From the NCBI GenBank assembly GCA_017455525.1, contig JAFTAP010000025.1, forward strand, positions 1-52,500: 52,500 nt of DNA. The letters run 5' to 3'. The stretch is from Lachnospiraceae bacterium. GTDB lineage: Bacteria > Bacillota > Clostridia > Lachnospirales > Lachnospiraceae. This document shows positions 15,753 through 45,215 of the stretch, piece after piece. Every line of letters starts with the position of its first letter. Position 1 is the first letter of the stretch. The translations under genes were made by a program, and so were the position numbers. The notes beneath the pieces are model-generated. The model made no database searches. It was not told where the DNA came from and saw only the letters and a list, made by a program, of their open reading frames with translations.

Positions 15753-15825
15753 ATTGCCGTCCGACCGCCTGTCTGTCTGATGAATCGCAGCTTGCGCAAA
15801 AACATCCTGCCTTAAAGCGAAATCC

Positions 15826-20764: not shown

Positions 20765-20787
20765 TTTATACTCTCCCAAATAACTAT

Positions 20788-29477: not shown

Positions 29478-29828
29478 CTAAGTCTGTATATTTTTCAAGG
29501 GAGTTTTTGCGGACACCGCGCCCTGGGTTTTTGGTATCACCATTGCCACGCACTTATTCTTCATGATGGTAAGGAACATCTCGAAGTCTTCCCGTCTGCC
29601 AAGCGTTACCGTAAGCACTTTCCCTGCGGGGGTCTTCTCATATGATAATTCGTCCGAATCATCCCCCATAAAATGAGAAAGATCCTTTGATGCCGGTTCC
29701 AGACCTCGAAGAGCCACTTTTTTATATTCCGATTCGAGATCCTCCATCCCCGGATGCAGATACAGCTTTTTATAGATTTCAGCAAGTTTCGGAAGCACTT
29801 CCCGTCCTGATGCATCTGCTTCACTCAT
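29478..29828 (-). CDS. Conserved-looking protein of unknown function
   Basis: A 116-residue, mainly helical, charged protein. I do not recognise the family. The C-terminal half (LTVTLGRREDFEMFLTIMKNK, then MVIPKTQG) looks like an alpha/beta fold with a hydrophobic strand. There is no signal peptide or membrane helix. It has its own predicted promoter (-10 TATAAT at 29868-29873) and GGGAAG 11 nt before the ATG. It lies between the hprK operon and the RiPP locus, with no clear tie to either. Confidence 0.65.
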   Translation of the reverse strand: MSEADASGREVLPKLAEIYKKLYLHPGMEDLESEYKKVALRGLEPASKDLSHFMGDDSDELSYEKTPAGKVLTVTLGRREDFEMFLTIMKNKCVAMVIPKTQGAVSAKTPLKNIQT

Positions 29829-29915: not shown

Positions 29916-30701
29916 TCAGGTACTGTGAATCCTTGAGCTATGAACAAGGTTACCATTTTTCAAATAATCACTCAACCTGTTATATCTGTCAAATCCACGC
30001 TGCTCCCATGCGGCTGCATCGTATGCCAAATCGCTGCCAAATATCTCCGCAAATGCCTTGGCCCGGAGATTTTCCTTCCCTCGTACATAGAAGCTTATAT
30101 CCTGCTCCCTGGTTATATATTTATATGGCTGTTCAAGGCAGTCCATGAGCCTGCCGCAGATTTCATCCAGTATCGGATCCATGTCTGATCTGTTATTCAG
30201 ACCGGGATCTGCATTATGCCTGTATGCACACCCGCTGTAGGCAACAGAAGCACCAAACATACGAACAGCCTCTTCAATCGCACTTGCGGTTTCAGTGCCA
30301 TGGTTATTAGACGATGTGACAAGCACGGCCGCTGTCTTCCCCGCAAGCTCATACAGATGCGACCAGTATGCAAGCCTGTCCACCACGCATTTCATAAGTC
30401 CTGACATTGAGCCCATGTATACCGGAGAGCAAAACAGGATCACATCCGCGCACAGCATTTTCTGCTTCAGGACGGACATGTCATCCCCATTATCCAGCGG
30501 GCATTCCCAATCATAGAAGCACGTTTCGCATGAGCGGCAGAACTCTATCTTAAGACTTTCCCCGGTGATGCGCTTGTACTCCACCTCTTTCCCGGATTTC
30601 TCAGCGTATTCTTTAAGCCGCTTTGCGACCATGTCAGAGAAAAGCGCGGTATTTGATTCTTTCCCGGCACATGATGCCACAAATGAAAAGACTTTGATCA
30701 T
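29916..30701 (-). CDS. Iron-sulfur flavoprotein / NADPH-dependent FMN reductase family
   Basis: A 261-residue flavodoxin-fold protein. The N-terminus (KVFSFVASCAGKESNT) is the FMN phosphate loop. The compact cysteine motif C-x2-C-x2-C-x5-C (CRSCETCFYDWEC, about residues 59-71) matches the [4Fe-4S] motif of archaeal iron-sulfur flavoproteins. SPVYMGSMSG and TSSNNHGTE follow. It could supply electrons to the radical SAM enzyme or reduce dehydroamino acids; both are inference from position. It is the last gene of the RiPP operon. The ATG at 30701 is 1 nt after the upstream stop, with AAGGGTGG as ribosome site. Confidence 0.82.
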   Translation of the reverse strand: MIKVFSFVASCAGKESNTALFSDMVAKRLKEYAEKSGKEVEYKRITGESLKIEFCRSCETCFYDWECPLDNGDDMSVLKQKMLCADVILFCSPVYMGSMSGLMKCVVDRLAYWSHLYELAGKTAAVLVTSSNNHGTETASAIEEAVRMFGASVAYSGCAYRHNADPGLNNRSDMDPILDEICGRLMDCLEQPYKYITREQDISFYVRGKENLRAKAFAEIFGSDLAYDAAAWEQRGFDRYNRLSDYLKNGNLVHSSRIHST

Positions 30702-30702
30702 A

Positions 30703-31836
30703 CTACCACCCTTGATCTGATAGTAACTCATACACCCGCCCTGCTATCATTTCATTACCCTTCTCCGAGACATGGCAGGTGTCGTGGAATATATCCTCTT
30801 CCTGCTCAAAGATATCAGTAAAGTCATACATATAAGGGTACTCTGTCCTGACTTTTTTATACTGATCATGGAAGTCTTCAAATCGTTCGATGCATTTCTT
30901 TATCGCATCTTCCTTGATCAGATTCTCTGCAAAGGAGCCCTTTGGGATCAACTCTCCTGTTATTATCGGTTGAAAAATATGATAATATCTGATACCAAAC
31001 TCTCCGCACAACGCATTCATGGATCTTGCGTTATAAATGAATTCGGAAAAGGCATCATTTGTTTCCTTTCCATAGTACATGGGGCGGAGCTCGTCCTCGT
31101 TGTTTTCGGTGTAGGATTTTATCATTTTTTCATGGTAATCATATAAGTTTTTATTTATCAGCGGGAAGTGTCCTCCTGAAGGAAGATCCATGGCTTCAGA
31201 ATAGTCATTATAGCCGGTATAGCTTATCACCGCATCAGGTTTTTCCCTGATTCCATCCCTTAATAAGCACAGCAGCTCCTGTCCGGTCGCATGTCCCACT
31301 ACGGCACCGTTCAGCACCTTGACTTCTTGTCCGTTTTCATTGAATTTCTTTTGCAGATACCATGACCATGAGCGTATACCCTCGTAGGTAGGATCGGAAG
31401 TGCTCCCACCCAATATAAGGATCTTTCTTCTTGCGTCAGAATCAGGGGCCATATCCACTATCGTGTTATCTCCCCTGGACGCCCCAAGCAAGGCGTCAGT
31501 ATGGTCAGCATCGTTCTTTGCGCTAAAGTACATCAGTATGTTTTCATCCGTAAAACCCATGCCGTAAAGCCTCTCCATGACTATGTCCTTGCCGCCCGGC
31601 GTACATATTACGATGACGGTTTTGTCCTTATCCTCATAGATCAGATCATAAGGACTCCGGATATCCTTTTCCAAAAGCTTACGGCCCTGCTTTTTCTTGT
31701 TTCCGTCACACACATAGGCGACCTCGACATTTTCAAGCCTTGCCTCGGTAAGGAACACCAGCGCAGTCACGCCTGATCCATATGCTATTACCTTCCTGCC
31801 TTTTATAAGCTTTTTTATCCTGTCGATATTTCTCAT
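30703..31836 (-). CDS. SGNH/GDSL-type hydrolase or acyltransferase with N-terminal Rossmann-like domain
   Basis: A 377-residue protein. Residues 1-110 form a nucleotide-fold-like domain (GRKVIAYGSGVTALVFL, DKTVIVICTPGG) of the kind seen before sugar- or peptide-modifying domains. Residues 130-377 are an SGNH fold: nucleophile block ILGGSTSDP, GYNDYSE as the Gly/Asn oxyanion block, and the Asp-x-x-His pair in FHDTCHVSEKGNEM. No signal peptide is present, so it acts in the cytosol. In the RiPP operon it could attach or remove an acyl group from the peptide. ATG 31836 is chosen with GAGG in front. Confidence 0.78.
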   Translation of the reverse strand: MRNIDRIKKLIKGRKVIAYGSGVTALVFLTEARLENVEVAYVCDGNKKKQGRKLLEKDIRSPYDLIYEDKDKTVIVICTPGGKDIVMERLYGMGFTDENILMYFSAKNDADHTDALLGASRGDNTIVDMAPDSDARRKILILGGSTSDPTYEGIRSWSWYLQKKFNENGQEVKVLNGAVVGHATGQELLCLLRDGIREKPDAVISYTGYNDYSEAMDLPSGGHFPLINKNLYDYHEKMIKSYTENNEDELRPMYYGKETNDAFSEFIYNARSMNALCGEFGIRYYHIFQPIITGELIPKGSFAENLIKEDAIKKCIERFEDFHDQYKKVRTEYPYMYDFTDIFEQEEDIFHDTCHVSEKGNEMIAGRVYELLSDQGW

Positions 31837-31844
31837 GACCGGCC

Positions 31845-32126
31845 TCAAAATTGGTAATTAAACGGCGATACCTCTACTTCATCGGACTCGTCACGGTTCT
31901 TAAAGGCAGATGCGGTGACGGAGGGGATGAAGTCTTTCATGTAAGGCTTATCTACGCTATCCCACATTTTCTCAAGCACTTTCATAAGCTCCACAGGAGT
32001 GTTGAAATCATATTCCATAGATGCATGATTGACCTTGCCTGGATGGCTTATCCCGATATTTCTTTTTGACAACGTATCCGCCGCTTCCTTTATCTTTATC
32101 CTGTCATCGTATTTAGTCCGGCTCAT
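31845..32126 (-). CDS. Small protein of unknown function in the RiPP operon
   Basis: A 93-residue protein, charged at the N-terminus (MSRTKYDDRIKIKEAADTL), with a central helix (TPVELMKVLEKMW) and an acidic end finishing SPFNYQF. It has no cysteine, no GG leader motif and no membrane segment, so it is not an obvious second precursor. It overlaps the carbamoyltransferase end by 14 nt, and its TGA directly precedes the SGNH start region, so it is firmly in the operon. A peptide-binding or partner role is conceivable. Confidence 0.7.
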   Translation of the reverse strand: MSRTKYDDRIKIKEAADTLSKRNIGISHPGKVNHASMEYDFNTPVELMKVLEKMWDSVDKPYMKDFIPSVTASAFKNRDESDEVEVSPFNYQF

Positions 32127-33930
32127 AGATGCTTCTCCAATCCTTTGCATCATCAAATTCTTCCTGTTCTTCTTTTAGCAGTATATGATTTTCCAGCACG
32201 AGTATGTCCATGTCCGTGCGCATGAAGCAAAGCCATGCGTCCTCCGGAGAGCACACGATCGGCTCTCCCCTGACATTGAAGGAGGTGTTTACTATCAACC
32301 CGCACCCGGTCAGCTCCTTGTATGCTGATATTATATTATAAAAAAACGGATTTGCATCCTTGCTTACTGTCTGGATCCTCGCGCTATAGTCTACATGGGT
32401 GACGGCAGGAATCATTGATCTTTTTTCATTTACGGTTTCAAAAATACCGGCATCTTTTTTGTGTGAATTCTCGTGTATTCTGATCTCATTATTTACAGGA
32501 GCGGTGAGCAGCATATAGGGGCTTTTGTCTGTCTTCAGTTCAAAATAATCATGGACATCTTCCTCCAGTACGGAGGGAGCAAACGGTCTGAAAGACTCCC
32601 TGAATTTTATCTTTAGGTTTAACTTTTTTTGCATATCCTCATGCAGAGCGCTTGCCACGATGGATCTGTTGCCGAGTGCCCTGGGACCATATTCCATGCG
32701 GCCATGGAAGAGTCCGATCACCTTTCCCTCCGAAAGATAACCGGCTATTTTTTTATATAGTTTTTTGTCGTCATAACGGTGGTATTTACAGCCTTTGTCA
32801 TTTAAGGATTTCTCTATTTCGTCATTGGTAAATGAAGGTCCAAGATACGATCCTTTTTGAGAGTCCCGGCCTTCTGTCATTCTTTTCCATCCTGCCTTAT
32901 TATATCCGTAATAAAGCGCGCACCCCAGAGCTCCCCCCGCATCGCCTGCGGCGGGCTGTATCCAGACATCGTCAAAAATCCCATCCTCAAGTATCCTGCC
33001 GTTCGCGACACAGTTCAGGGCGGTTCCCCCTGCCATCACCAGCTTGCCGCAGCCGGTTATCCTTCTTGCTTTTCTTGCAAGGTTTATCATTATTTCTTCA
33101 GTAACCTTCTGGATGGAGGCTGCGATGTCCGTGTATGGCTTTGAGATATTTGTCTCAGGTCTTCTAGGCTGCATATTGAACAGTTCACAGAAGGCATCGG
33201 ATATCAGGGAATCGTTCGTCATATAATTAAAGTATTTTTGATTAAGATGAAGACCGCCGTCCGGGTCAATACCTACGATTTCTTTTTTTATCAGCTCTTC
33301 ATATACCGGCTCCCCGTAAGGCGCAAGCCCCATAAGCTTATATTCTCCGAAATTTACCTTGAATCCGCAATAATATGTGAATGCGGAATACAAAAGCCCC
33401 AGGGAATCAGGATAGTTGGTCTGCTCCAATATTTCAATCCTTTCCCCATCCCCCATGCCTATGGTGGTCGTCGCCCATTCTCCCACTCCGTCCACAGTAA
33501 GGATCGCGGCACGTTCAAAAGGGGATGGATAGAAGGCTGATGCACCGTGCGATATGTGATGCTCGCAAACCTCCAACTTCCCGCCCTTTGGCCATTTATT
33601 TCCGAGTGCTTTCTTTAAGTGTTCATGTATCCAAAGCCGTCCGGACATCATGTGATGAAATGATTTATCAATGATTTTTTCATTTTGGGGAGCTGCCTCG
33701 ATAACGTTTGTCAGCCATCTGTCCAAGGTAAGAAAGGGATTATCATAATAAACGACCTTGTCTATCTTTTTCCCGAACGAAAGACAATAGCTTATCGCAT
33801 TAACGGGTATGGATGCATCGGCCTTTATCCTTGTGAACCGCTCCTCCTGAGCGGCGGCGATTATGTCACCATCGCATACCAGCGCCGCTGCGCTGTCGTG
33901 GTATAGTGCCGATATGCCTAAGATATTCAC
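32113..33930 (-). CDS. NodU/CmcH/TobZ-family carbamoyltransferase
   Basis: A 605-residue O-carbamoyltransferase. The N-terminal Kae1-like domain has GISALYHDSAAAL, the metal-binding HHISHGASAF and TVDGVGEWATT. The C-terminal domain has GRMEYGPRALGNRSI and FRESFRPFAPSV. Family members make carbamoyl-adenylate from carbamoyl phosphate and ATP and transfer it to a hydroxyl on small molecules such as tobramycin and cephamycin. In a peptide operon, likely acceptors are a hydroxyl on a modified residue or on an attached group. The start is GTG 33930: AAAGGAGA is in front and GTGA overlaps the upstream stop. Confidence 0.9.
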   Translation of the reverse strand: MNILGISALYHDSAAALVCDGDIIAAAQEERFTRIKADASIPVNAISYCLSFGKKIDKVVYYDNPFLTLDRWLTNVIEAAPQNEKIIDKSFHHMMSGRLWIHEHLKKALGNKWPKGGKLEVCEHHISHGASAFYPSPFERAAILTVDGVGEWATTTIGMGDGERIEILEQTNYPDSLGLLYSAFTYYCGFKVNFGEYKLMGLAPYGEPVYEELIKKEIVGIDPDGGLHLNQKYFNYMTNDSLISDAFCELFNMQPRRPETNISKPYTDIAASIQKVTEEIMINLARKARRITGCGKLVMAGGTALNCVANGRILEDGIFDDVWIQPAAGDAGGALGCALYYGYNKAGWKRMTEGRDSQKGSYLGPSFTNDEIEKSLNDKGCKYHRYDDKKLYKKIAGYLSEGKVIGLFHGRMEYGPRALGNRSIVASALHEDMQKKLNLKIKFRESFRPFAPSVLEEDVHDYFELKTDKSPYMLLTAPVNNEIRIHENSHKKDAGIFETVNEKRSMIPAVTHVDYSARIQTVSKDANPFFYNIISAYKELTGCGLIVNTSFNVRGEPIVCSPEDAWLCFMRTDMDILVLENHILLKEEQEEFDDAKDWRSIYEPD

Positions 33931-35828
33931 CGGATATCTCCTTTCACCCGGGGACTCAAAGGACATTCCTCCATCTCAAATGCAAGCCTTCCATGAAGCT
34001 TGTGACCGACGTCCATGCATGGGACGCAATATGGGTTCAGGGAACACTCTGCGCAGCAGCCTTCGGGGGACGACGATATCTCCCTCAGTCTTTTTATGGA
34101 TTCCGACTTCTCCCAGTATTCGCTTATAGAGTCCCATTTTTCGGGGATATTCAAATGGCGGCAGGGGGTAAGCCTTCCCCCGGCAGTTACGGATACCCCG
34201 TCCCGTCCTGCGCCGCAGCCCCTCTCTATGCCGTTATTCCGGTTACCAAAGAGACCGCTGTGGATCAAGGCAAGCAGCTGTGAGAAGCAACCCTCAGCAT
34301 CAATGTATAAAGAGCCCTTGTATTTCTTGACCGTATGTGCGATATCGCGCATCTGCTTTTCGGTGGGATAGCCGCTGAGGCTCCCCGATGAATCGGGCTT
34401 GAAGCCCAGTATTATCAGCGTTTTTACGTGGTTATCCTCGCAGAGTTTTATCATGTTCGGAAAATCATCCGCATTGCATCTGTGCATCACCCAGTTAATG
34501 CAGATATTATCAAAGGAAAGCTCCTGCAGCAGGGCAAGAAGTCTCATCGCCTGAGCATAGCCATCCCTTGTAAGAGAGGTAACCTCTTCCGTACTGCCAT
34601 TAAGGGAGACATAGATCTCCTCCACACCCCTGTCTATAAGTCCCTTGATCCGATCCTTTGACGCCCCCGCCCCGGACAGGGCGATCGCCGTATGAAGCCC
34701 AAGCTCCCCGCATTCCTCCAGAACCCGCTCTAGATGAGGGTAGCACAGGGTCTCTCCCCCGCTGAGGTTCACCTGCTTCACCCCGCACCTTGCAGCATCC
34801 CTTATCCAGTAAAGGGCGGTCTCAAGTGACATCTCACGTCCGGTATTGAGCGAGACGTAGCACTGCGGGCAATGCAGAGGACACGCCGTCGTAAGCTCAA
34901 GATTCATCTCCCACGGGTGAGAATAATGGCTCGCCTCGGCTATAATAAAGGCTGTGGTCTGCTGCAGATAAGCCTTGGCGGCAATTATCCCGTCATCAAT
35001 AAATGTGACCTTCACATGCGAGAGGTCGTTCTGTATGACCGGCTCCTTTTGAGGGGGATACCGCAGGAAGCGCTTTATCGCCTCCTCCCTTACGGACAAT
35101 AAAAGCCCCTGCTCCCTTAGCTTTTTCAGCAGTCCGTCGGTAGACTTTAAGGTTTTGAGCCTTGTGGAAAAATTAATGCCTATCTTAGGTCCCACATGGT
35201 CTTCAAAGAGGTCGAAATTCAATATGAGTGTGGAATTATGCCAGGTCTCAAGGAAGGTCCCGATTCCTTTGGTTCCCCCTGCATATCCGATGTCCTTAAG
35301 ATACGGTATTATATCTCCTGCCTTCATGTAATCCGTATAGATACGAAGGCTCTCCTCCTCCCCCCTGGCTTCCATGGTACCGACCTGATACAATCCGTCG
35401 CACCTTCCCTGCAGCAGCCCCACAGCGTTCTTCAGGACAGGGGCAAAACGGGAAGCCATATCTTCACCCACGAGTCGGGGCAGCACGTCCTTATAGTAAT
35501 CCTCGTCATCCCTGCCCGGGCGCAATCTCCCGGCATCATAGAATATACACGGATTTATATTATCGCCGGACACATATGTCCCATAGTCCATCTCAAGCCA
35601 GTATTCCTCTATATCCTGATCGGGCGTGGGCACACAGACGGAGTAATCCATGACGGGCAGCTCCCTGTCCATGGGTATCTCAAGGCATACTGCGGACACC
35701 CCGGTGTCCCCCAGTCTGCGCTCGATATTTGACAGTCCCGCAATGCATTCATCCGAAAAGATCTCAGGATACGACTGCTCCCTTAATGCTTTTATATATT
35801 CGCTGACCGGATGCGTTATCTGCTTCAC
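33927..35828 (-). CDS. Radical SAM/SPASM peptide-modifying enzyme with novel N-terminal region
   Basis: A 633-residue protein. The radical SAM core begins at about 305 with the cluster motif C316-x3-C320-x2-C323 (CPLHCPQCY) and continues with NLSGGETL. The C-terminal SPASM region has many cysteines (GCGAGRDG, TPCRH, CCAECSLNPYCVPC, EECPL), enough for auxiliary clusters. Residues 1-300 match no domain I know and contain GTFLETWHNSTLILNF and DHVGPKIGINFS. SPASM enzymes in RiPP loci make thioether, C-C or ether links, epimers or dehydrogenated residues. With no cysteine in the precursor, thioether chemistry is excluded. GTG start at 35828, 65 bp after the LanM-like gene. Confidence 0.9.
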   Translation of the reverse strand: MKQITHPVSEYIKALREQSYPEIFSDECIAGLSNIERRLGDTGVSAVCLEIPMDRELPVMDYSVCVPTPDQDIEEYWLEMDYGTYVSGDNINPCIFYDAGRLRPGRDDEDYYKDVLPRLVGEDMASRFAPVLKNAVGLLQGRCDGLYQVGTMEARGEEESLRIYTDYMKAGDIIPYLKDIGYAGGTKGIGTFLETWHNSTLILNFDLFEDHVGPKIGINFSTRLKTLKSTDGLLKKLREQGLLLSVREEAIKRFLRYPPQKEPVIQNDLSHVKVTFIDDGIIAAKAYLQQTTAFIIAEASHYSHPWEMNLELTTACPLHCPQCYVSLNTGREMSLETALYWIRDAARCGVKQVNLSGGETLCYPHLERVLEECGELGLHTAIALSGAGASKDRIKGLIDRGVEEIYVSLNGSTEEVTSLTRDGYAQAMRLLALLQELSFDNICINWVMHRCNADDFPNMIKLCEDNHVKTLIILGFKPDSSGSLSGYPTEKQMRDIAHTVKKYKGSLYIDAEGCFSQLLALIHSGLFGNRNNGIERGCGAGRDGVSVTAGGRLTPCRHLNIPEKWDSISEYWEKSESIKRLREISSSPEGCCAECSLNPYCVPCMDVGHKLHGRLAFEMEECPLSPRVKGDIR

Positions 35829-35893
35829 CCTGCGACCTCACTTTCAAGTCCGTAAGCTGCCTGATAATCCCTTTTGACATTTCCGTTTGTGCT

Positions 35894-37975
35894 TCATATT
35901 GTGTCTTCGGTTAATCCCGCAAGCTCCATGTACCATAGCATGACATATCCTATGCCGCTCTCACCGAAGTAAAATGACGGATCCTCGCTGTTATAATAAG
36001 GCCACGACCTTGTGGTATATTGACCCGATCTTTGTTTGTCAGCATATATTACGGTCAGTATTTCACCTGCCCTCAAAAGATCTGTCTCATCTCCATTATC
36101 ATGATATGCAAGTAACAGTCTCCCGGAAAGTCCCGCCCGTCCGCCGTCCACTATGTCCGTGTCGGGAAGCTCAGTCTCCACAGGAATATCGCCAAAGAGC
36201 AGGCGTTCTGCTTCCCCCATATCCGGATTCTCATTTTTCAGGCACCTCATGAGCGTCTCCAGACCGGAAACCACCTTTGCCTGCTTGTCACCGTAGCGAT
36301 CATTCTCCTGCTTCTCGCGCTCCCACATTTTCAGATAAAGCTCAATGTCACCCATGCATTTTTCAAGCATTTTTTCGGCCAGCTCCCTTTCGGTTCCATC
36401 ATGCATGAGATACTTCTTAAGGAATAGCGCTATGCCTCCGCACCCGTTCCCGGGGGCGGCACTGCCTATCCTCGCATCGGTTGCCTTATGTCCGCCAAAC
36501 CACATGGATCTCCCTTCAGGCGTCGTCACCATCATGTCTTTTATTCGGGGCACTATCCTGTCAGCTTCACCCAGGATGACCTCCGCTGAAAGGGACTCGG
36601 GTTCAGATACATGCTCCGTATCATGCTCCCTGACCTCATACCAGCTATGTATCCTGTCGGTATGCCTGAAGCAGAGCCTGATCAGCTCCTCTTCAAATAG
36701 CTCCTCCTCATCACCCATGAGGTCAAGCCTTTCTGCGGCACGGTCAAGCGCCGTCTTCTGAAAGCACCCCCGGATCAGCGGCTCATGCTCCGGACTGCCA
36801 TATAAATCCCTGCTGCCAAGCCTTGTATGGTAATAAGGAAAATCACCCTCCTCCAGTGAAGCCCTCTCCCACTTCATAAGAGACGCAGTATCCCGGGGAT
36901 CATTCCCCGCGAAGCGTCTCCCAAGCCTCTTATATACCTCTTCCTTTTTACCGGGATCCGTCATAGACTCGGGAGCGAGCAGGTTGCCAAGCATCCTCTC
37001 GTAGTACGCCGTAGGCCTAAGCACGTAGCGAAAGGCAATGTCATTGTTTTCATCGAGAAGATCCCGCAATGATCTGCGTATCTTCATCACACGCCCATAG
37101 CCCTCCTTAAAGCCCGCTATGAATTCCTCCCGGTATTCCTCGACGGTCCTGAGCTCGTTCCCGATCATGGGGAGACATCCCATCGTAAGCTCCTTGCTGT
37201 ACAAGGGACTGAACTGGAGACCGCCCAGCACCATCGTCGGAAGCACGCAGGTGTCCATAAAAGAATGGGTAATATATTTATCAGGTATGAAGTAGACAGG
37301 AGGCCTTATTATCCAGTCTTTGTCAAGCTGCGGTGTCAGCATGGTCTCCATGTCGATGACCACGGGTCTGTCCCCACAGGCTATGATGTTGCCCCCGTGC
37401 AGGTCGGAGCTTGCAAGCGACCGGAAAAGCGCCAGCATTACGCCGAAATTATGATAATATCCTGCTATATCCTCCGCCCGCCTTACTTCCTGGTTTTCTA
37501 CATTGGAAACATATGAATAACCGTCACGTAGGATAAGCGCAGGGACGGATGTCACATCGCCAAACCACCTGTCTGCGATCTGACAGTATAAGCCGTCAAG
37601 CCTGCTCTCACGTGGCTTATAGTAAAAAATACCCTGATCCGTCCCGATGCGAAGGGAGCAGCGCCCATGGTTGTGAAAGTCAGCACCCGGCCAGGTTATG
37701 TCCTGTATTTCCCGAAAAGACCTTCCCTTAAAGATACGTTCAGAGATCTCACCGGAGTCAGCCAGTATCCGTCCCAGAGTCTCGTCACGAAAGACCGCGG
37801 TATTATCCCTGACCCTCCCTTCAAGGATCTTCCAGGCCTCAGGCTCGTCTCCGGCTTTATAAAAGTCACGCCTGAGAACCCCCAGGCGTGACTCTTCCAT
37901 CTTCTCAAATGAGCTGTATCCGCCGGAGAAGTCCATCCCCCTCACACGTTCAAGTCTGCCCATTGATAAATCCAT
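35894..37975 (-). CDS. LanM-like lanthipeptide synthetase with truncated, zinc-less cyclase half
   Basis: A 693-residue protein (LanM enzymes are typically 900-1100). The dehydratase (DUF4135) part is intact: FHNHGRC (100-106), FYYKPR with Lys120, and the kinase-like catalytic motif Asp191-x-His193-x-x-Asn196 (SSDLHGGN), then VVIDMETML. The C-terminal part from about 490 is a LanC-like toroid remnant (GNGCGGIALFLKKYL, GGRAGLSGRLLLAYH, GESGIGYVMLWYMEL). It is shortened, and the zinc ligands (a lone Cys and the Cys-His-Gly motif) are absent. Expected activity: ATP-dependent dehydration of Ser/Thr without lanthionine formation. The stop of the precursor is 15 bp upstream. The start is uncertain among ATGs at 37975, 37963 and 37936. 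Confidence 0.88.
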   Translation of the reverse strand: MDLSMGRLERVRGMDFSGGYSSFEKMEESRLGVLRRDFYKAGDEPEAWKILEGRVRDNTAVFRDETLGRILADSGEISERIFKGRSFREIQDITWPGADFHNHGRCSLRIGTDQGIFYYKPRESRLDGLYCQIADRWFGDVTSVPALILRDGYSYVSNVENQEVRRAEDIAGYYHNFGVMLALFRSLASSDLHGGNIIACGDRPVVIDMETMLTPQLDKDWIIRPPVYFIPDKYITHSFMDTCVLPTMVLGGLQFSPLYSKELTMGCLPMIGNELRTVEEYREEFIAGFKEGYGRVMKIRRSLRDLLDENNDIAFRYVLRPTAYYERMLGNLLAPESMTDPGKKEEVYKRLGRRFAGNDPRDTASLMKWERASLEEGDFPYYHTRLGSRDLYGSPEHEPLIRGCFQKTALDRAAERLDLMGDEEELFEEELIRLCFRHTDRIHSWYEVREHDTEHVSEPESLSAEVILGEADRIVPRIKDMMVTTPEGRSMWFGGHKATDARIGSAAPGNGCGGIALFLKKYLMHDGTERELAEKMLEKCMGDIELYLKMWEREKQENDRYGDKQAKVVSGLETLMRCLKNENPDMGEAERLLFGDIPVETELPDTDIVDGGRAGLSGRLLLAYHDNGDETDLLRAGEILTVIYADKQRSGQYTTRSWPYYNSEDPSFYFGESGIGYVMLWYMELAGLTEDTI

Positions 37976-37990
37976 TGTGTCCGGATATTA

Positions 37991-38317
37991 TCACCATTTT
38001 TTCTTGACCGCAAAATATATTATTGTTGCGGTGGTGCTTAAAGTATATGCGATGATCGGAGTAAGTCCGCCTGCCGCGCTCTCAAGCTCCTCCTCGGTAA
38101 GCTCATCGTTATTTGACTTTACCTTGTCGGATGCCTCGTTCATAAGCCTTGCCAGCTCATTGACCTCGTCGATTGAAAGGCTTATTCCCTTTGAATCAAG
38201 CTCTGCCTTTACCTCCTCTGCAGTCTCAAGGTCAAAAAGCTTCTTTGCGTACTCCTGATCCTTCAGCAGCTCGCCCAGCTTTTTCATCTCCGCTTCATCG
38301 ATCTTTACATCACTCAT
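37991..38317 (-). CDS. Nif11-type RiPP precursor peptide, cysteine-free core
   Basis: A 108-residue peptide. Residues 1-60 form a Nif11-like helical leader, and the acidic stretch ELTEEELESAAGG (72-84) is a classic double-glycine cleavage site for a C39 peptidase. The predicted core is residues 85-108: LTPII at its start, a central YTLSTTAT, a hydrophobic run and a KKKW end. It has five Thr and one Ser but no Cys; the whole peptide lacks Cys. The start ATG at 38317 has a perfect GGAGGTGAT ribosome site. It is directly followed by the LanM-like gene, and it faces a divergent NHLM-type exporter operon with a C39 peptidase. Confidence 0.92.
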   Translation of the reverse strand: MSDVKIDEAEMKKLGELLKDQEYAKKLFDLETAEEVKAELDSKGISLSIDEVNELARLMNEASDKVKSNNDELTEEELESAAGGLTPIIAYTLSTTATIIYFAVKKKW

Positions 38318-38356
38318 GTTTATCACCTCCATATTGAAAATCTAAAACTATGACTT

Positions 38357-38479
38357 CTTGCGGACGAAATTCGGTAATTGTCCGCAAGAATCCGGCTTCG
38401 CCGGACACGCCGAACGTCAAGCCGGTCGCCTGGTCAAATACGATTATTGATTTTCCGATGAAAATCAATAATCTATATT
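38357..38479. repeat. Hairpin repeat modules in the leader of the RiPP operon
   Basis: CTTGCGGAC (38357-38365) pairs with GTCCGCAAG (38380-38388), and TCCGGC-ttc-GCCGGA follows at 38391-38405. Positions 38429-38479 match the reverse complement of 3850-3900 at about 45 of 51 positions, including ATTATTGATTTTC/GAAAATCAATAAT. All lie between the promoter and the precursor start, giving a structured mRNA leader of about 155 nt. Confidence 0.8.
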
Positions 38480-38481
38480 AT

Positions 38482-38510
38482 TTTATACGAGCGACCGGCA
38501 GAAATGTCAA
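38482..38510 (-). promoter_or_regulatory. Promoter of the RiPP precursor operon
   Basis: On the minus strand TTGACA (38505-38510), exactly 17 nt, then TATAAA (38482-38487). This near-consensus promoter would drive the precursor and the seven downstream genes to 29916. Confidence 0.8.
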
Positions 38511-38537
38511 TACAAATATCTAAACTGTTGCGATTAT

Positions 38538-38681
38538 CTATGCGCTGAACAAATATTTTCGCATCATATTTCCAAATTCCTTAAAATACTTTTTATCTTC
38601 TGATCCCGCATAATCATACTGGTGCAGCATTTCGATTTAAAATATCATCTTGCCGCCAGCTGCTTCGTTGTCGTCGGTCAG
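38538..38681 (-). other. Possible relic of a second precursor or lost gene
   Basis: On the minus strand an open frame without a good start ends LTDDNEAAGGKMIF at 38637, resembling the acidic-plus-GG end of a leader cut off after four core residues. Just after it, 38630-38538 could encode a 30-residue peptide (MLHQYDYAGSEDKK...). Neither has a ribosome site. This may be decay debris or chance. Confidence 0.25.
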
Positions 38682-38728
38682 CGTAGACAAGCGAAAATCA
38701 ATTTGATGAACACCTGATGGACATGTTG

Positions 38729-38737
38729 TGGTATGAT
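38729..38737 (+). promoter_or_regulatory. Extended -10 box directly before the exporter operon
   Basis: TG-G-TATGAT (38729-38737) ends 8 nt before the ATG at 38746, with no Shine-Dalgarno. The -35 is not clear. This predicts a leaderless or nearly leaderless mRNA for the first exporter gene. Confidence 0.5.
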
Positions 38738-38745
38738 ATAAAACT

Positions 38746-40476
38746 ATGGCAGACATTTTTAGGAAATCGGCAACCGACAGGCTCTCGGAACCCGAGCAGC
38801 TGGACAAGGCGATAGTCATAGTATCGCCCTCTTTCTGGATCGCTGTGCTTGGAGCCTTTGGGATCATCGCAGTCGCCCTCGTGTGGTCCATATTTGGGAG
38901 GCTTCCCCAGAACATCTCCGCAAACGGGATATTCATGAGCAGAGAGGGGATATACACAGTCTATTCAGAGACAGGCGGCACCGTGCAGGAAATAACCGTC
39001 TATCCCGGGCAGCAGGTGCATAAGGGAGAGGTGATAGCGAGGCTTTCAAGCAAGACACCGGAGCTAAAGCTGAACGATCTCCTGCTGCGCAGACAGGCGG
39101 TGGAGGACGTGACCCTGACCTCTGCCGATGATGTGGCGATCGACGACAACAAGGAGTTGCTTAATATAAAAAGCCAGGGGCTTACCATGGACAACAGCAT
39201 AGTCTCTGATCAATACATGCTTGATGCGAAGCAGGGCGAGCTTACGACCCAGAAGGGAAAGACTGCTGCGGCAAAGGCTAGCCTTGACGAGGTCGAGATA
39301 AAGTATTACCTGAGTCTGCTTCCGGTAGACACCAATAAGGCGAATATAACCTTCGCGGAGGCACAGACCAATCTAAATTCCGCAAAAAACTATCTGGAAA
39401 GCGCAAAGGATACGCTGTTAAACCTCGACGCACAGAATGAAAACACAGAGAAAAGGTACAAAGAGGCAAAGGAAAAGCTTGAATCCGTAAGTGAGGATTC
39501 CGAGGAATATCAGTCGCTCCTTGCCGGCTATGAACAGGCAAAAAAGGCGTGGGAGGATTACGAGGACGCGGCAGATGATTATGAGCGCAAGGTAAGGTCA
39601 TGGGAAAATGTCACCTACCAGACACAGAGCCAGTATGAGGCAGCAAAGGAAGGGTATGTAAATACGGTCGTCCGGCAGGAGTCCACGACGGCATGGAACG
39701 CACAGGTAAGCGCCGCATACCAGAAAGCGCTTAATACTTATAATACGGAGCTTGGAACCCAGAGGACGCTTGAGGACGAGATCATACAGATCAAGGCGAG
39801 GCTTGCAGGCGAGGAAAGCAACATGGAAAACCAGAGCTTGGCCCTTTCCGCGCAGTTTGACGCTGCCAAGAACGCCGCCCTTGCTCAGATCGACAGGGAG
39901 ATCAGGGAATATAACGAACAGATAGTAAACAACTCTATCTGCTCCACCCTTGACGGCACGATAACGGAGGTCTCGGTCGTCGAGGGTCAGGTGATAAATG
40001 CGGGAGAGTACGTAGCGAGGGTGTCACAGGGCGATGCAGGGGACAACGTGGTCGTTTGCTACGTGCCCGTGGCAAGCGGCAAGAAGATAAACGTGGGAAT
40101 GAGCGCATCCGTGTACCCAAGTACGGTAAAGAAGCAGGAATACGGTCACATGAAGGGCACGGTGGAGTACGTGGACAGCTATGTGACGTCCCGGGCACAG
40201 ATAACGAACCAGGTCGGTCTGGCTTCCCTGGTTGATTCCTTCCTCCAGAACGGACCGGTGGTGGAGGTCCGCTTAACCCTTAAAACGGACGACAGCACCG
40301 AAAGCGGGTACTGGTGGTCCAGCAGGAGAGGGGCCGAGATAGACCTCATGAGGGGCACCATGGTCTCGGCCGACATCGCGACCGAGGAAAAAGCCCCTAT
40401 ATCAATGCTGATACCTTATTTGAAGGAGAAGCTTACCGTGAGGCGCACGGGGGGAGAAGACTCCAAAAATGAGTAA
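38746..40476 (+). CDS. HlyD-family secretion protein of an NHLM-type bacteriocin exporter
   Basis: A 576-residue membrane-fusion-type adaptor. MADIFRKSATDRLSEPEQLDK is the characteristic N-terminus of NHLM secretion proteins. One TM helix follows (about 37-58), then a lipoyl-like half (GGTVQEITVYPGQQVHKGEVIARL), a long coiled coil (about 125-395, rich in Glu/Lys/Ala heptads), the returning lipoyl half (LDGTITEVSVVEGQVINAGEYVARV) and a beta-barrel part. In a Gram-positive cell it would extend across the wall zone and work with the two ABC proteins that follow. It overlaps the next gene by 8 nt. Confidence 0.92.
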   Translation: MADIFRKSATDRLSEPEQLDKAIVIVSPSFWIAVLGAFGIIAVALVWSIFGRLPQNISANGIFMSREGIYTVYSETGGTVQEITVYPGQQVHKGEVIARLSSKTPELKLNDLLLRRQAVEDVTLTSADDVAIDDNKELLNIKSQGLTMDNSIVSDQYMLDAKQGELTTQKGKTAAAKASLDEVEIKYYLSLLPVDTNKANITFAEAQTNLNSAKNYLESAKDTLLNLDAQNENTEKRYKEAKEKLESVSEDSEEYQSLLAGYEQAKKAWEDYEDAADDYERKVRSWENVTYQTQSQYEAAKEGYVNTVVRQESTTAWNAQVSAAYQKALNTYNTELGTQRTLEDEIIQIKARLAGEESNMENQSLALSAQFDAAKNAALAQIDREIREYNEQIVNNSICSTLDGTITEVSVVEGQVINAGEYVARVSQGDAGDNVVVCYVPVASGKKINVGMSASVYPSTVKKQEYGHMKGTVEYVDSYVTSRAQITNQVGLASLVDSFLQNGPVVEVRLTLKTDDSTESGYWWSSRRGAEIDLMRGTMVSADIATEEKAPISMLIPYLKEKLTVRRTGGEDSKNE

Positions 40477-42643
40477 GCGCGGGTATGCGAAAACCCCCAC
40501 GGTCTATCAGATGGAGGCGACCGAGTGCGGAGCCGCCTCGCTTGCGATGATACTGGGGTACTTCGGTAAGCATATACCTCTCGAGCAGATGCGCATAGAG
40601 TGCGGCGTATCGCGGGATGGAAGCACCGCCGCCAATATTATGCGTGCAGGGAGAAGGCTGGGACTCGAGGTTCATGGCTACCGCAAGGAACTTGACGGTC
40701 TGCTGGAGCTTCCGGTGCCCTGCATACTGCACTGGAACTTCAACCATTTCGTGGTATGGGAGGGAGTGAAGGGCAGATACTGTTATATCAATGATCCCGG
40801 TGAAGGACGGAGAAAACTCACTTTTCAGGAAATAGACGACTGCTTTACCGGCGTAGTCCTTACCTTCAGTAAAACACCGGAATTTGTCCCCTCCAAAAGG
40901 ACTGATACCCTCATGGGATTCATAAGGAAGCGTCTTGAGGGACAGCAGGGTGCCCTTGCGGCTCTTGTAGTAACGGGATTGCTTCTGGTATTTCCGGGAC
41001 TGGTGATACCGGTTTTCTCACAGGTCTTCATAGACGGCATACTGATCGACGGAAACGATGCCTGGACTACCGGGCTTCTTGCCGTGATGATATTCACCAT
41101 GCTGTTCAAGTCGGTACTGACTTACTACCGGGGGATGCTCCTGCAGCTTTTGCAAAACAAGATGGCGCTGGTATCGGCGCATAAATTCCTGACCCACTTC
41201 TTCAGACTTCCCATAGGCTTCTTCACTCAGCGGTACGCCGGCGATCTGTCAAACCGCGTAGAGAATAACAACAATATAAGCGTCTTCCTGACCGGGGATG
41301 TGGCAGAGACCGTTTTGAACATAATGGTGGCGGTCTTTTATCTGATCCTGCTTGTAATATACAGCCCCCTGCTTACGATGATAGGAGTGGCGATAGTCGC
41401 CCTAAACCTTGTGATAATGAAATCCGGCGCCAACGCGATAGGCGACATGGCGCTTAAGCTGCAGCAGGAGCAGGGGCGATTGCTCGGAAATTTATTTGCA
41501 GGCATAGCCGTGTCGGAATCACTCAAGGCATCCGGTACGGAAAATGAATACGCGGGCAAGCTTCAGGGGTATTATGCCAAGAGCATACAGATAGAACAGA
41601 AGATAGGCTGCAGGCAGGCGATACTTGATGCCATACCCGAGGTCACGCAGCAGGTCACGACCATAGTGATACTGATAGTGGGGGGCATACAGGTCACAGG
41701 GGGGGCACTCACCGAGGGAATGCTGGTCGCCTTTGCTTCCCTGCTTGACTCCTTTATGGAGCCGGTAAACAGTCTTGCGGGCTTTGTGCAGAAGGTGCAG
41801 ACCGCAAAGGCGGACATGAGGCGGGTCGAGGACATCATGAAGTATGATGAGGATACTAAATTTGAGGCTGATGACAAGGCCGATATCGGCAGGAAGCTGG
41901 AGGGGAACATAAGGCTTGAAGCCGTATCCTTTGGCTACAGCACGCTAAAGCCGCCCCTTGTTAAGGATTTCAGCTTTGACATAAAGACCGGCTCCTCCAT
42001 AGCCTTCGTCGGAGCCTCGGGGAGCGGCAAGTCCACGATGTCGAAGATCTGCAGCGGACTGTACAGGCCCTGGAGCGGGGAGATACTGATAGACGGCATC
42101 CCTGTGGAACATATTCCTGCGGAGGTTCTGTCATCAAGCATATCCACGGTGAGTCAGGAGATATCCCTTTTTTCGGGAACTGTGAGGGACAACCTTACGA
42201 TGTGGAACCGGTTCATGCCACAGACGGACGTGATAAGGGCCGCCAAGGATGCCTGTATTCACGATGTCATAACCTTGAAGCCCGGGGCCTACGACTATCA
42301 GATAGCAGAGGGCGGCTCCAATTTCTCCGGAGGACAGCGGCAGCGGCTTGAGATAGCGAGGGCTCTTGCAACCAATCCCAGCATACTCATAATGGACGAG
42401 GCGACGAGCGCGCTTGATCCGCTGCTTGAGAAAGAAATATTGGATAATATAAAACGAAGGGGCTGCACCTGCATCATAGTGGCGCACAGGCTGTCCGCAA
42501 TACGCGACTGCGACGAGATAATAGTCATGGATCAGGGGAAGATAGTACAGAGGGGAAGCCACGACGAGCTTGTGGATCAGGACGGACAGTACAAGGTACT
42601 GGTACAGAATATAGGCATGGCCGCAGATGAAGACGGGAAATGA
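40469..42643 (+). CDS. C39 peptidase-ABC exporter (NHLM type) that cleaves the GG leader
   Basis: A 724-residue protein. Residues 1-140 are a C39 double-glycine peptidase with catalytic Cys in ATECGAASLAMIL (about 19), His in HWNFNHFVVWEG (about 92) and Asp in INDPGEG (about 108). Five to six TM helices follow (about 155-430), then an ATP-binding domain with Walker A GASGSGKST, signature FSGGQRQRLE, Walker B ILIMDEATSALD and AHRLS. It should remove the Nif11 leader after GG and export the core peptide. The precursor gene lies divergently 2.2 kb upstream. Confidence 0.95.
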   Translation: MSKRGYAKTPTVYQMEATECGAASLAMILGYFGKHIPLEQMRIECGVSRDGSTAANIMRAGRRLGLEVHGYRKELDGLLELPVPCILHWNFNHFVVWEGVKGRYCYINDPGEGRRKLTFQEIDDCFTGVVLTFSKTPEFVPSKRTDTLMGFIRKRLEGQQGALAALVVTGLLLVFPGLVIPVFSQVFIDGILIDGNDAWTTGLLAVMIFTMLFKSVLTYYRGMLLQLLQNKMALVSAHKFLTHFFRLPIGFFTQRYAGDLSNRVENNNNISVFLTGDVAETVLNIMVAVFYLILLVIYSPLLTMIGVAIVALNLVIMKSGANAIGDMALKLQQEQGRLLGNLFAGIAVSESLKASGTENEYAGKLQGYYAKSIQIEQKIGCRQAILDAIPEVTQQVTTIVILIVGGIQVTGGALTEGMLVAFASLLDSFMEPVNSLAGFVQKVQTAKADMRRVEDIMKYDEDTKFEADDKADIGRKLEGNIRLEAVSFGYSTLKPPLVKDFSFDIKTGSSIAFVGASGSGKSTMSKICSGLYRPWSGEILIDGIPVEHIPAEVLSSSISTVSQEISLFSGTVRDNLTMWNRFMPQTDVIRAAKDACIHDVITLKPGAYDYQIAEGGSNFSGGQRQRLEIARALATNPSILIMDEATSALDPLLEKEILDNIKRRGCTCIIVAHRLSAIRDCDEIIVMDQGKIVQRGSHDELVDQDGQYKVLVQNIGMAADEDGK

Positions 42644-45215
42644 AAACGTAAAATTCCATATATGGGGCGGGGAGGTTTTTATTACCGAAAGCTCCCATAA
42701 AGCCTACCGTGTGCTGAAGGGGAGCATACTGGTATACCTCATGCCTTTTTCAGACGGGAAACCGGGGCGGAGGCTCTTCCTGAAGGAAGTTTCCGAGGGA
42801 GACATGGCACCGGGTCTCGCCGTTGATTCAAAGACGGATGGTACCTGGCGGTTTGGTTTTGTGGCGCTTGATGAGGCCGACTTCGATGAGGTAGATTACG
42901 AGGCGACGGACGAATCCTCTCTGGATGATTTAAGACTTTCATTCGCAGGCGCGGCGGGGCTTTCATTATCAAGTTCTGCGGAGCTTGAAGAGGCTCTCAT
43001 AGAGCTGTACAACATGCACTCGGTAATAGAAGAGGGTCATATCTATAATATCCGGCAGGATGCGGAGTCCACCAGGGAGCGCTCCCTGAAAATGATAAGG
43101 GATGTCTTTGAAAAAAAGGGCATGCATAATGAAGTAACGGAGGCGCCGACGGGACTGGAGCTCTATGACTGCGCCGCCATCCTTTGCGCAAGGGAGGGCA
43201 TACATATTGCGCCGATTGAAAAAATCCGGCAGAGCATGGGCAGGCGATTTACGATAAATGACATCGCCAGGATATCGCACTTCATGATCAGGCAGATCAA
43301 CCTTGAGGAGGATTGGTACAGGAAGGATCAGGGGGCGTTTATCGCAGTCAGGGATGAGGACGGTCATCCCTATGCCATACTCCCGTCAGGGATCGGGAGG
43401 TACCGGGCATATGATGCAAAAAGCGCCGGGTTTATCAGGGTAGACGAGGACTTTGCGGAAGGTCTCAGCCCCGATGCGATGATGTTTTACAGACCCTTCC
43501 CTGAGGAGAAGATAACCCTGTCAAAGCTCATAGCCTTTGGTTTTAAGAAAGTATATCGCCCGGACATCGTGAGGATAGTGCTGCTTGCGGTGATCGGTAT
43601 CCTGACGGGACTGCTTATTCCTTTCTTTAACTCGCTGGTATACGACAGGTTCATACCCATGGGAAATGATAACGGGCTTGTGCAGCTGGGAGCGGTTATT
43701 CTTGCGTGTGCTTTGGGCAATGTTTCATTCACTGTCGTCAAGAACCTTTCGACCATGAGGGCGATGGACTCGATGAAGTACGCAGTCCAGAGCGCGACGA
43801 TGGACAGGCTCTTCAATCTTCCCGAAAGCTTCTTCAGGGAATACGATGCCGCCGACCTGGGGCTTAGGACGATGAACATATCCCAGATGTACGAGGTGTT
43901 TTCAAAAAATGCTGTGAACAGCGTGCTAACGGCATTTTTTTCATTATTATATATTTTCAGGATGTACGGGTACTCAAAGATACTCACAGGTCGGGCGATC
44001 ATAATGCTCGCAGTATCGATGATCTTTGTGATCTGTCTGGGGCAGAGGCAGATAAAGCTCGAAAGGAAAAAGCTCTTGACCGACAATGCCGCAAATGCCA
44101 GCATGTACCAGTTCATAAACGGGATTGAAAAGCTTCGCATGAGTGCATCGGAGGAGAGGGCGTTGATACGATATCTGACGGATTATACCGAATCAAGAAA
44201 GATAAACATACGCAAGGAACGTATGACGGTTACGGTAACTACCTTCGTGGGAGCGGCGCAGATCATCTTTTCGATCGTGTTTTATTACCTTATGATACGA
44301 AAGGGAATGGGACTTAGTATCGGAAGCTTCGTGGGCTTCACCACGGCATTTGGTTCACTGTCCGGAGCAATGTTTGAGCTATCGCAGAGCTTCCTTGCGG
44401 TAAATCAGGCATGGCCCATGTACGAGATGGCCCGTCCTGTGCTTGAGGCATTGCCTGAGAGCACGGATGAGGCAATGATACCGGGCGAGCTGACGGGCGA
44501 CATAGAGATAGACAACGTGACCTTTTCCTATGACCCGTCAGGCGAGCCTGTATTAAGCGACATCAACCTGCACTTCTCCCCGGGGGAGTATGTGGGCATA
44601 GTTGGTGCCTCGGGATGCGGAAAATCAACCCTCTTAAAGCTTTTGATGGGCTTTGAAAGGCCGCAGATTGGAAAGATATATTACGACAGACAGGACATAG
44701 ACGAGCTCGACAAGAGGGAGCTTAGAAAAAGGTTCGGCGTGGTGCTGCAAAACGGCGGACTTATAGGCGGAACCATATATGAGAACATAACGATCACCGC
44801 CCCGAACTGCAGCAAGGAGCGGGTGGAAGAGGTCGTGCGTGAGGTGGGGCTTGCAGACGACATAGCGGCAATGCCCATGGGGCTTTATACTCACATAAGT
44901 GAGGGAATAAGCACCATCTCCGGCGGTCAGGCGCAGAGGATACTAATAGCACGTGCGATAGCCGGAAAGCCAAGGATAATATTTTTTGACGAGGCGACGA
45001 GCGCCCTTGACAATACAACGCAGACGAAGGTCATGGAAACACTTTCAAGCCTTGAAGCCACAAAGATCGTGATAGCCCACAGGCTTTCCACCATAGCAGG
45101 CTGCGACAGGATCATAGTGATGGATAAGGGACGGGTGATAGAGGAAGGAAATTACGACGAGCTTATGGAGAAGCACGGCAGATTCTATGAGCTTGCATTG
45201 AGGCAGATGACGTAG
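42627..45215 (+). CDS. Second ABC exporter protein of the NHLM system
   Basis: An 862-residue protein overlapping the peptidase-ABC gene by 17 nt. The N-terminal 290 residues (WGGEVFITESSHKAYRVLKGSILVYL and onward) form a cyclic-nucleotide-binding-like domain typical of the second NHLM ABC protein, without a peptidase. Six TM helices lie at about 310-580. The nucleotide-binding domain has GASGCGKSTL, ISGGQAQRIL, IIFFDEATSALD and AHRLS. It probably forms the heterodimeric exporter with the previous protein. Confidence 0.92.
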   Translation: MKTGNENVKFHIWGGEVFITESSHKAYRVLKGSILVYLMPFSDGKPGRRLFLKEVSEGDMAPGLAVDSKTDGTWRFGFVALDEADFDEVDYEATDESSLDDLRLSFAGAAGLSLSSSAELEEALIELYNMHSVIEEGHIYNIRQDAESTRERSLKMIRDVFEKKGMHNEVTEAPTGLELYDCAAILCAREGIHIAPIEKIRQSMGRRFTINDIARISHFMIRQINLEEDWYRKDQGAFIAVRDEDGHPYAILPSGIGRYRAYDAKSAGFIRVDEDFAEGLSPDAMMFYRPFPEEKITLSKLIAFGFKKVYRPDIVRIVLLAVIGILTGLLIPFFNSLVYDRFIPMGNDNGLVQLGAVILACALGNVSFTVVKNLSTMRAMDSMKYAVQSATMDRLFNLPESFFREYDAADLGLRTMNISQMYEVFSKNAVNSVLTAFFSLLYIFRMYGYSKILTGRAIIMLAVSMIFVICLGQRQIKLERKKLLTDNAANASMYQFINGIEKLRMSASEERALIRYLTDYTESRKINIRKERMTVTVTTFVGAAQIIFSIVFYYLMIRKGMGLSIGSFVGFTTAFGSLSGAMFELSQSFLAVNQAWPMYEMARPVLEALPESTDEAMIPGELTGDIEIDNVTFSYDPSGEPVLSDINLHFSPGEYVGIVGASGCGKSTLLKLLMGFERPQIGKIYYDRQDIDELDKRELRKRFGVVLQNGGLIGGTIYENITITAPNCSKERVEEVVREVGLADDIAAMPMGLYTHISEGISTISGGQAQRILIARAIAGKPRIIFFDEATSALDNTTQTKVMETLSSLEATKIVIAHRLSTIAGCDRIIVMDKGRVIEEGNYDELMEKHGRFYELALRQMT

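Follow-up and report, generated by a model that had tools for sequence, protein, structure and literature searches.

Several systems that have already been described resemble parts of the locus analysed here, which lies at positions 29916-45215 of a 52,500-nucleotide stretch (the window) of a Lachnospiraceae bacterium, on contig 77 of a draft genome of 2.7 Mb, and carries the genes for a putative ribosomally synthesised and post-translationally modified peptide (RiPP) together with its tailoring enzymes and its exporter. The closest is phospeptin, from Candidatus Eudoremicrobium malaspinii, for which a cyclase-less LanM, EmbM, and a cysteine-free precursor of the Nif11 type, EmbA, are on record (PMC9505594; PMC9259500; here and below, papers are cited for those of their sections that concern the topic). 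Phospeptin and the window share a leader with a GG site (of the Nif11 type in phospeptin, Nif11-like in the window), a core without Cys and a LanM without the zinc cyclase; however, EmbM is the sole maturase of phospeptin and is reported to lack the residues for phosphate elimination (PMC9505594), whereas the enzyme in the window keeps them and is accompanied by a fusion of a prenyltransferase (PT) domain with a radical S-adenosylmethionine (SAM) enzyme, a carbamoyltransferase, an SGNH protein and a flavoprotein. PoyF, from the pathway of the proteusin polytheonamide, is likewise a LanM-type dehydratase without a cyclisation domain and is found beside radical SAM enzymes, but these are of the C-methyltransferase and other types, the leader is of the NHLP type, and the sections of the source on this pathway mention no prenyltransferase (PMC9505594). 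CcaM of carnazolamide, one of the dehydrazoles, also uses DUF4135 for dehydration and forms no lanthionine, but it has a class III-type cyclase domain and needs azoles to be installed first by YcaO (PMC10676384), none of which is present in the window. The LanM-like proteins of the CA_C0082 family (670-728 amino acids, aa) lack zinc ligands as well; unlike the protein in the window, they also lack the dehydratase residues, and they are encoded beside agr genes with no precursor (PMC10301443).

Other parts of the locus have counterparts of their own. The cyanobactin and indole prenyltransferases of the PT-barrel type (LimF, PagF, DciF; CymD, PriB, IptA) have the fold that we predict for residues 1-295 of the fusion, but the PT-barrel matches listed are only 6-14% identical to it, share no Pfam model with it, and none has an entry title indicating fusion to a radical SAM enzyme. 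Carbamoyltransferases are rare but known in RiPP pathways, as in those of crocagin and StdF (PMC13174530); the NodU-like StdF carries a fused peptidase and works with YcaO and MNIO enzymes, whereas the near relatives of the window enzyme are found in surface-glycan loci.

Results

Ten genes make up the locus, seven transcribed from the minus strand and three from the plus strand. Each is an uninterrupted open reading frame (ORF) at the coordinates given below, as listed in a first-pass annotation made from the letters alone. In order of transcription, the minus-strand genes encode the precursor, a LanM-like protein, the fusion protein, a carbamoyltransferase, a small protein, an SGNH protein and a flavoprotein. 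The prenyltransferase domain of the fusion is the most unusual part of the locus. Residues ~1-295 of this 633 aa protein (34944..35828, minus strand) form a separate domain of the prenyltransferase fold according to structure prediction, with a ten-stranded barrel of the PT (ABBA) type in the model of the window protein and a PT-barrel fold as well in that of a relative, L050 (loci and genomes are referred to by our L and G numbers). Polar residues of the barrel are invariant in 11 of 11 PT domains. The remainder of the same ORF (residues 296-633; 33927..34943) is a radical SAM half with the CxxxCxxC motif (CPLHCPQC; Radical_SAM, 68.6 bits, over the cut-off) and SPASM-type cysteines, the latter assigned by eye, as the window protein has no SPASM match in Pfam. 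The description of the whole protein in the first-pass annotation as a radical SAM/SPASM enzyme is thus correct for this half, with the SPASM part taken from the cysteines, and overlooked the barrel. The best-scoring model for the radical SAM half is PqqE, an enzyme that performs C-C bond chemistry, and the score is below the cut-off of that model. Pfam and NCBIfam have no family for the PT domain; Pfam searches with five members returned two weak matches, each in a single member (best E 0.072), and a search of PDB sequences with a profile of the domain gave a best E of 0.11. Neither a targeted literature search nor the prenyltransferase part of the review PMC11002830 revealed such a fusion, which does not prove that none has been published, and the parts of PMC13289728, PMC4289311 and PMC10880069 on the topic contain neither such a fusion nor a similar locus.

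Fusions with an intact CxxxCxxC motif were found in five genomes, that of the window and those with loci L050 (G204), L051 (G760), L094 (G046) and L095 (G018), the L051 contig ending inside the fusion gene, before the SPASM part. All five fusion loci have genes for Nif11-like precursors as neighbours and, within the limits of their contigs, NHLM export genes too. The C-terminus of these precursors is distinctive: eight of ten end in Lys or Arg followed by Trp ([KR]W), an ending that none of the 19 precursors at eight other loci has (L035, L047, L048, L060, L062, L096, L097, L098; three of the 19 end in Trp; Fisher p 1e-5). Counted by locus, the motif is present in 5/5 fusion loci and 0/8 others. 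The count was made after the motif had caught attention in the window, L050 and L051, and paralogues and the near-identical L094 and L095 make the rows dependent; in these last two loci, which were added later, one of the two precursors ends in RW. Scans of L061, L099 and L100 found no precursors, and these loci are excluded from the 19.

The PT domain is also joined to a radical SAM half without CxxxCxxC in five proteins (L047:9635-11545, L048:9163-10821, L096:1212-2999, L097:8361-10052 and L098:9241-10929), and a sixth protein of this set, L099, is cut by the contig end. Nif11-like precursors at the five loci have Cys in the core in 13 of 13 cases, and at L047 a separate radical SAM protein is encoded nearby. 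Stand-alone radical SAM proteins, 43-45% identical to the corresponding half in the window, are found at L060, L061 and L062. In a tree of the radical SAM sequences the window groups with L094/L095 (support 100/99), but the existence of a single fusion clade is left unsettled (3 changes; 7 of 15 inner branches open); one row labelled with the degenerate group, L100, is a radical SAM piece at a contig end.

The fusion loci vary in their accessory genes. UPF0489 (peptide arginase-type) genes accompany Arg before the terminal Trp in L050, L094 and L095, while L051 is not judgeable; all three score over the Pfam cut-off for UPF0489, and L050 and L094 are below that of the peptide arginase model NF052474. 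In these genes and in their Nif11-like precursors they resemble the peptide arginase Nif11 (N11P) loci (PMC12703449), from which the window differs in having no UPF0489 gene in the cassette and Lys instead of Arg before the terminal Trp. In L050, an isopentenyl-diphosphate (IPP) isomerase joined to a LuxR-type helix-turn-helix domain is encoded directly upstream of the fusion (L050:9236-9979).

The precursor in the window (37991..38332, minus strand) has 113 aa and not a single Cys, as the first reading had stated. Its leader ends in ...ESAAGG and is followed by a predicted core of 24 aa with six Ser/Thr and a C-terminal Lys-Trp. The proposed Nif11 nature of the leader agrees with its alignment through the GG site with nine precursors of related loci; the score against the Nif11 model (TIGR03798, 19.4 bits) is below the cut-off of 32.3 but is the best leader match; no NHLP leader is among the precursor matches at E<=0.1. 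A hidden Markov model of eight leaders, including that of the window, matches only this precursor within the window. A search of the whole genome for Nif11 leaders found nothing, yet it also missed the precursor in the window, so that further precursors elsewhere are possible. On the plus strand, the three-protein NHLM exporter recognised in the first reading is complete, with an HlyD-type adaptor (38746..40476; TIGR03794, 254.7 bits), ABC1, with C39 peptidase, permease and ATPase (40469..42643; TIGR03796, 1007 bits), and ABC2, with permease and ATPase (42627..45215; TIGR03797, 806 bits), all above the NCBIfam equivalog cut-offs (156.2, 853 and 709, respectively). If the C39 domain of ABC1 cuts behind GG, the released core would be LTPIIAYTLSTTATIIYFAVKKKW, with an unmodified mass of 2741.577 Da.

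The LanM-like protein (35894..37975, minus strand; 693 aa) retains the dehydratase domain (DUF4135, 186 bits against a cut-off of 29), and its LanC half is shortened, with scores below the cut-offs for LANC_like (14.5, cut-off 23.2) and TIGR03897 (240, cut-off 304). In the HMMER alignment it matches CylM at D252, H254, K274, D347, H349, N352, D364, R506 and T512. In CylM, D347, H349, N352, D364 and K274 belong to the active site, D252, H254, R506 and T512 are tied to phosphate elimination, and zinc is bound by Cys875, Cys911 and His912 (PMC4550811). The stretch with the zinc ligands is absent from the window protein and is kept by the five same-family LanMs compared over their full length, a sixth LanM in the alignment, L040, being cut by a contig end. 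The broken cyclase half reported in the first reading is therefore real. Since the active-site and elimination residues are kept and the zinc-ligand stretch is absent, the protein should act as a dehydratase only, which dehydrates Ser/Thr without cyclising. In terms of the traits of class II lanthipeptides, the dehydratase domain with its catalytic residues is present, whereas the zinc LanC domain and Cys in the core are absent.

This is the only DUF4135 protein found in its own genome. Among 341 genomes sampled across the class there was one LanM match at 1e-15 besides that of the window (G199), and of 397 sampled genomes of the same family 27 matched at 1e-3, that of the window included, with a best identity of 28% for the others. 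LanM-like matches occurred in 148 plasmid records, but in no case did they extend over 80% of the query (top-ranked, 24.7% identical); no relative was found in the genome-contig collection scanned with the LanM-like protein, nor in viral contigs scanned with the radical SAM protein and with alignments of LanM and radical SAM proteins. The closest LanM relative in the sampled genomes, L035 (G296; 28% identity), is a full LanM with a zinc motif of the CCG type, and its gene lies beside a radical SAM gene, NHLM-type export genes and two precursors, one with two Cys in the core and one with none.

None of the other fusion genomes yielded a LanM: there is no DUF4135 match in G204 or G760 (the same model is positive in the genome of the window) and no LanM match in G046 (99% complete) or G018 (75% complete). 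Because the cores of these nearest relatives are Cys-free or have a single Cys, and their genomes have no LanM match, the LanM looks like a local addition to the PT-radical SAM pathway. Likewise, Cys is missing from six of the ten cores at fusion loci, and five of these six come from loci that have no LanM, which makes the absence of Cys a trait of the PT-radical SAM family instead of a loss that went along with the change in LanM. Cys-free cores in relatives, which the first-pass annotation had looked to as support, do occur, but mostly where there is no LanM, and its proposal of a new lanthipeptide-derived class arising by joint loss of Cys and zinc ligands is not supported.

The carbamoyltransferase (32113..33930, minus strand) is of the NodU/CmcH type (Carbam_trans_N/C, 263/234 bits, over the cut-off). 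Its probable GTG start, at 33930, overlaps the stop of the fusion gene as GTGA, behind an AAAGGAG stretch. It is followed by a small protein without family match (31845..32126; 93 aa from the likely start in a 103 aa ORF), an SGNH/GDSL protein of 381 aa (30703..31848; PF00657, 26.7 bits against 23.6) and an FMN_red-type flavoprotein (29916..30731, probable start 30701; 74 bits, over the cut-off) with a CX2CX2CX5C motif that we take to be iron-sulfur binding; the assignments made in the first reading for the three larger proteins all stand. A role of the flavoprotein as a dehydroamino-acid reductase was considered and set aside, as a literature search on this point gave no tie between those reductases and this FMN_red protein.

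A search of 48 genomes of the genus found five carbamoyltransferase matches other than the protein itself, four at 52-58% identity (G001, G004, G022, G023) and one at 34% (G030); the comparison of contexts covers the first four. In G001 the gene is divided between two ORFs. Behind each of the four comes a small ORF with 13-26% identity to that of the window and a similar aromatic C-terminal end, an SGNH-like match is near in three of the four loci, and genes of the sugar epimerase, aminotransferase, LicD or NusG type are found close to them. The carbamoylation cassette was probably recruited from a surface-glycan locus, judging from these neighbourhoods.

Discussion

We consider it probable that the genes of the locus act on one exported peptide, which would be modified while bound to its leader, dehydrated, prenylated on Trp, altered by the radical SAM enzyme, further tailored, cleaved after GG and secreted by the NHLM system. 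The chemical steps, their order and the activity of the product are what we infer from the gene content. The enzymes would bind the precursor through its Nif11-like leader, the LanM-like protein would phosphorylate core Ser/Thr (six candidates) and eliminate the phosphate to give dehydroalanine and dehydrobutyrine with no lanthionine, the PT-barrel half could attach a prenyl group to the indole of the terminal Trp, and the radical SAM/SPASM half could introduce a second change near the basic-Trp end. Further late steps may be carried out by the carbamoyltransferase with its small partner and by the SGNH protein, and the flavoprotein might perform a late step or supply electrons. After cleavage by the C39 peptidase of ABC1 and export by the three-protein system, the product would be a hydrophobic, cationic peptide, probably a bacteriocin. 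The earlier conception of a multiply tailored, Cys-free, NHLM-exported RiPP with a dehydratase-only LanM is supported by our analysis. Its claim of novelty falls away where it concerns a Cys-free Nif11-type precursor with a cyclase-less LanM, a pair already known from phospeptin; the PT domain, the most unusual part, it had missed.

Several observations weigh against this reading. The fold does not prove activity, and the PT domain could be a relic that now serves to bind peptide. Three sequences underlie the model of the window domain, its five versions ranging in predicted local distance difference test score (pLDDT) from 82.5 to 58.2. An IPP isomerase gene is present in one of the five fusion loci, two of the ten precursors there (L094 and L095, ...GAERFK) have no Trp, and precursors ending in Trp occur beside stand-alone radical SAM proteins without PT domain (the only one at L060 and one of three at L062), so that Trp may be the target of the radical SAM enzyme. 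As to the LanM, R506 and T512 fall in a weak segment of the HMMER alignment (18.6 bits), although their motif aligns too in the alignment with six same-family LanMs, and the frequency of Ser/Thr in the core (6/24, against 31/283 in nine other cores) is not significantly raised (one-sided p = 0.053). Finally, the stretches fetched for L050, L051, L094 and L095 contain no BLAST match to the LanM, carbamoyltransferase, small ORF, SGNH protein or flavoprotein of the window, the small ORF family being too divergent for its null result to mean much.

Among the alternatives, the one that touches the fusion directly supposes that the barrel is catalytically dead and docks the precursor, with the radical SAM half acting alone, for example by linking the terminal Trp to a neighbouring side chain, and prenylation not taking place. 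The stand-alone relatives favour it, as two of the three (L060, L062) lie beside Nif11-like precursors, four in all, of which three have a terminal Trp or Tyr, and so does the similarity to PqqE; yet the polar residues of the barrel are invariant, the PT domain has been retained in five proteins whose radical SAM half lost CxxxCxxC, and the IPP isomerase gene adjoins the fusion in L050. We regard a dead barrel as unlikely. A stronger contender, which we hold to be a distinct possibility while leaning to the other side, is that the genes for the carbamoyltransferase, the small protein and the SGNH protein form a surface-glycan cassette that happens to lie downstream and plays no part in modifying the peptide. 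The neighbourhoods of the four related carbamoyltransferases are what this would lead one to expect, but the GTGA overlap with the fusion gene and the close packing of the ORFs down to the flavoprotein gene argue against it, as does the lack of Pfam matches to sugar-nucleotide or glycosyltransferase families in the ten cassette proteins.

For the LanM-like protein, the comparison with phospeptin raises the question of whether Ser/Thr are left phosphorylated, as in the diphosphorylated product of EmbA and EmbM, instead of being converted to dehydroamino acids. The likeness of leader, GG site, core and cyclase-less enzyme makes that product a natural precedent, but the match of the window protein to the four elimination residues that EmbM reportedly lacks renders it improbable. 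Descent from class II lanthipeptides, with a new dehydrated class evolving as the substrate lost its Cys and the LanM its zinc ligands, seems to us very improbable. The apparently intact dehydratase without its zinc-ligand region, the Cys-free precursor and the full LanM of L035, beside radical SAM and NHLM genes and with two Cys in one of two cores, are consistent with such a descent; against it, the genomes of the sister loci in the tree, L094 and L095, have no LanM match and cores that are already Cys-free, as are most cores at fusion loci, largely at those without LanM.

Taking the five fusion loci together, it is evenly balanced in our judgement whether they represent an undescribed class of RiPPs, in which a bifunctional PT-radical SAM/SPASM enzyme would prenylate and radically modify the basic-Trp end of Nif11-leader, NHLM-exported peptides, with accessories that vary among strains (peptide arginase, IPP isomerase, dehydratase-only LanM, glycan-derived carbamoylation cassette). 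If true, a single polypeptide, with an architecture absent from our Pfam, NCBIfam and targeted literature searches, would link the transfer of isoprenoids with radical chemistry on a peptide, and in the window a dehydratase, a prenyltransferase, a radical SAM enzyme and a carbamoyltransferase would all be assembled around one short Cys-free peptide. The combination of a Pfam-invisible PT fold with Nif11-like precursors ending in [KR]W could also serve as a sequence handle for lipidated, non-lanthionine RiPPs in anaerobes.

Genomic setting

The cassette lies between uvrC and hprK. In another genome of the genus, G030, these two genes adjoin, and in G002, with a uvrC 84% identical, they are separated by ~6 kb of other genes (these two of the eight genomes searched were inspected); because the interval differs among the three, it is a variable site. 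The locus was either gained in this lineage alone or is what remains of one that was formerly more widespread. Decay of the cassette, against which the first-pass annotation had also argued, was set aside, as all its genes are uninterrupted. Between the cassette and hprK there is an ORF of 116 aa with no family over the cut-off (29478-29828, minus strand). Elsewhere in the window, a run of four hybrid-kinase genes (13914-22833) includes one (17816-20779, minus strand) for a protein of 987 aa that combines an amino-acid permease (PF13520, PF00324) with a histidine kinase and a receiver domain.

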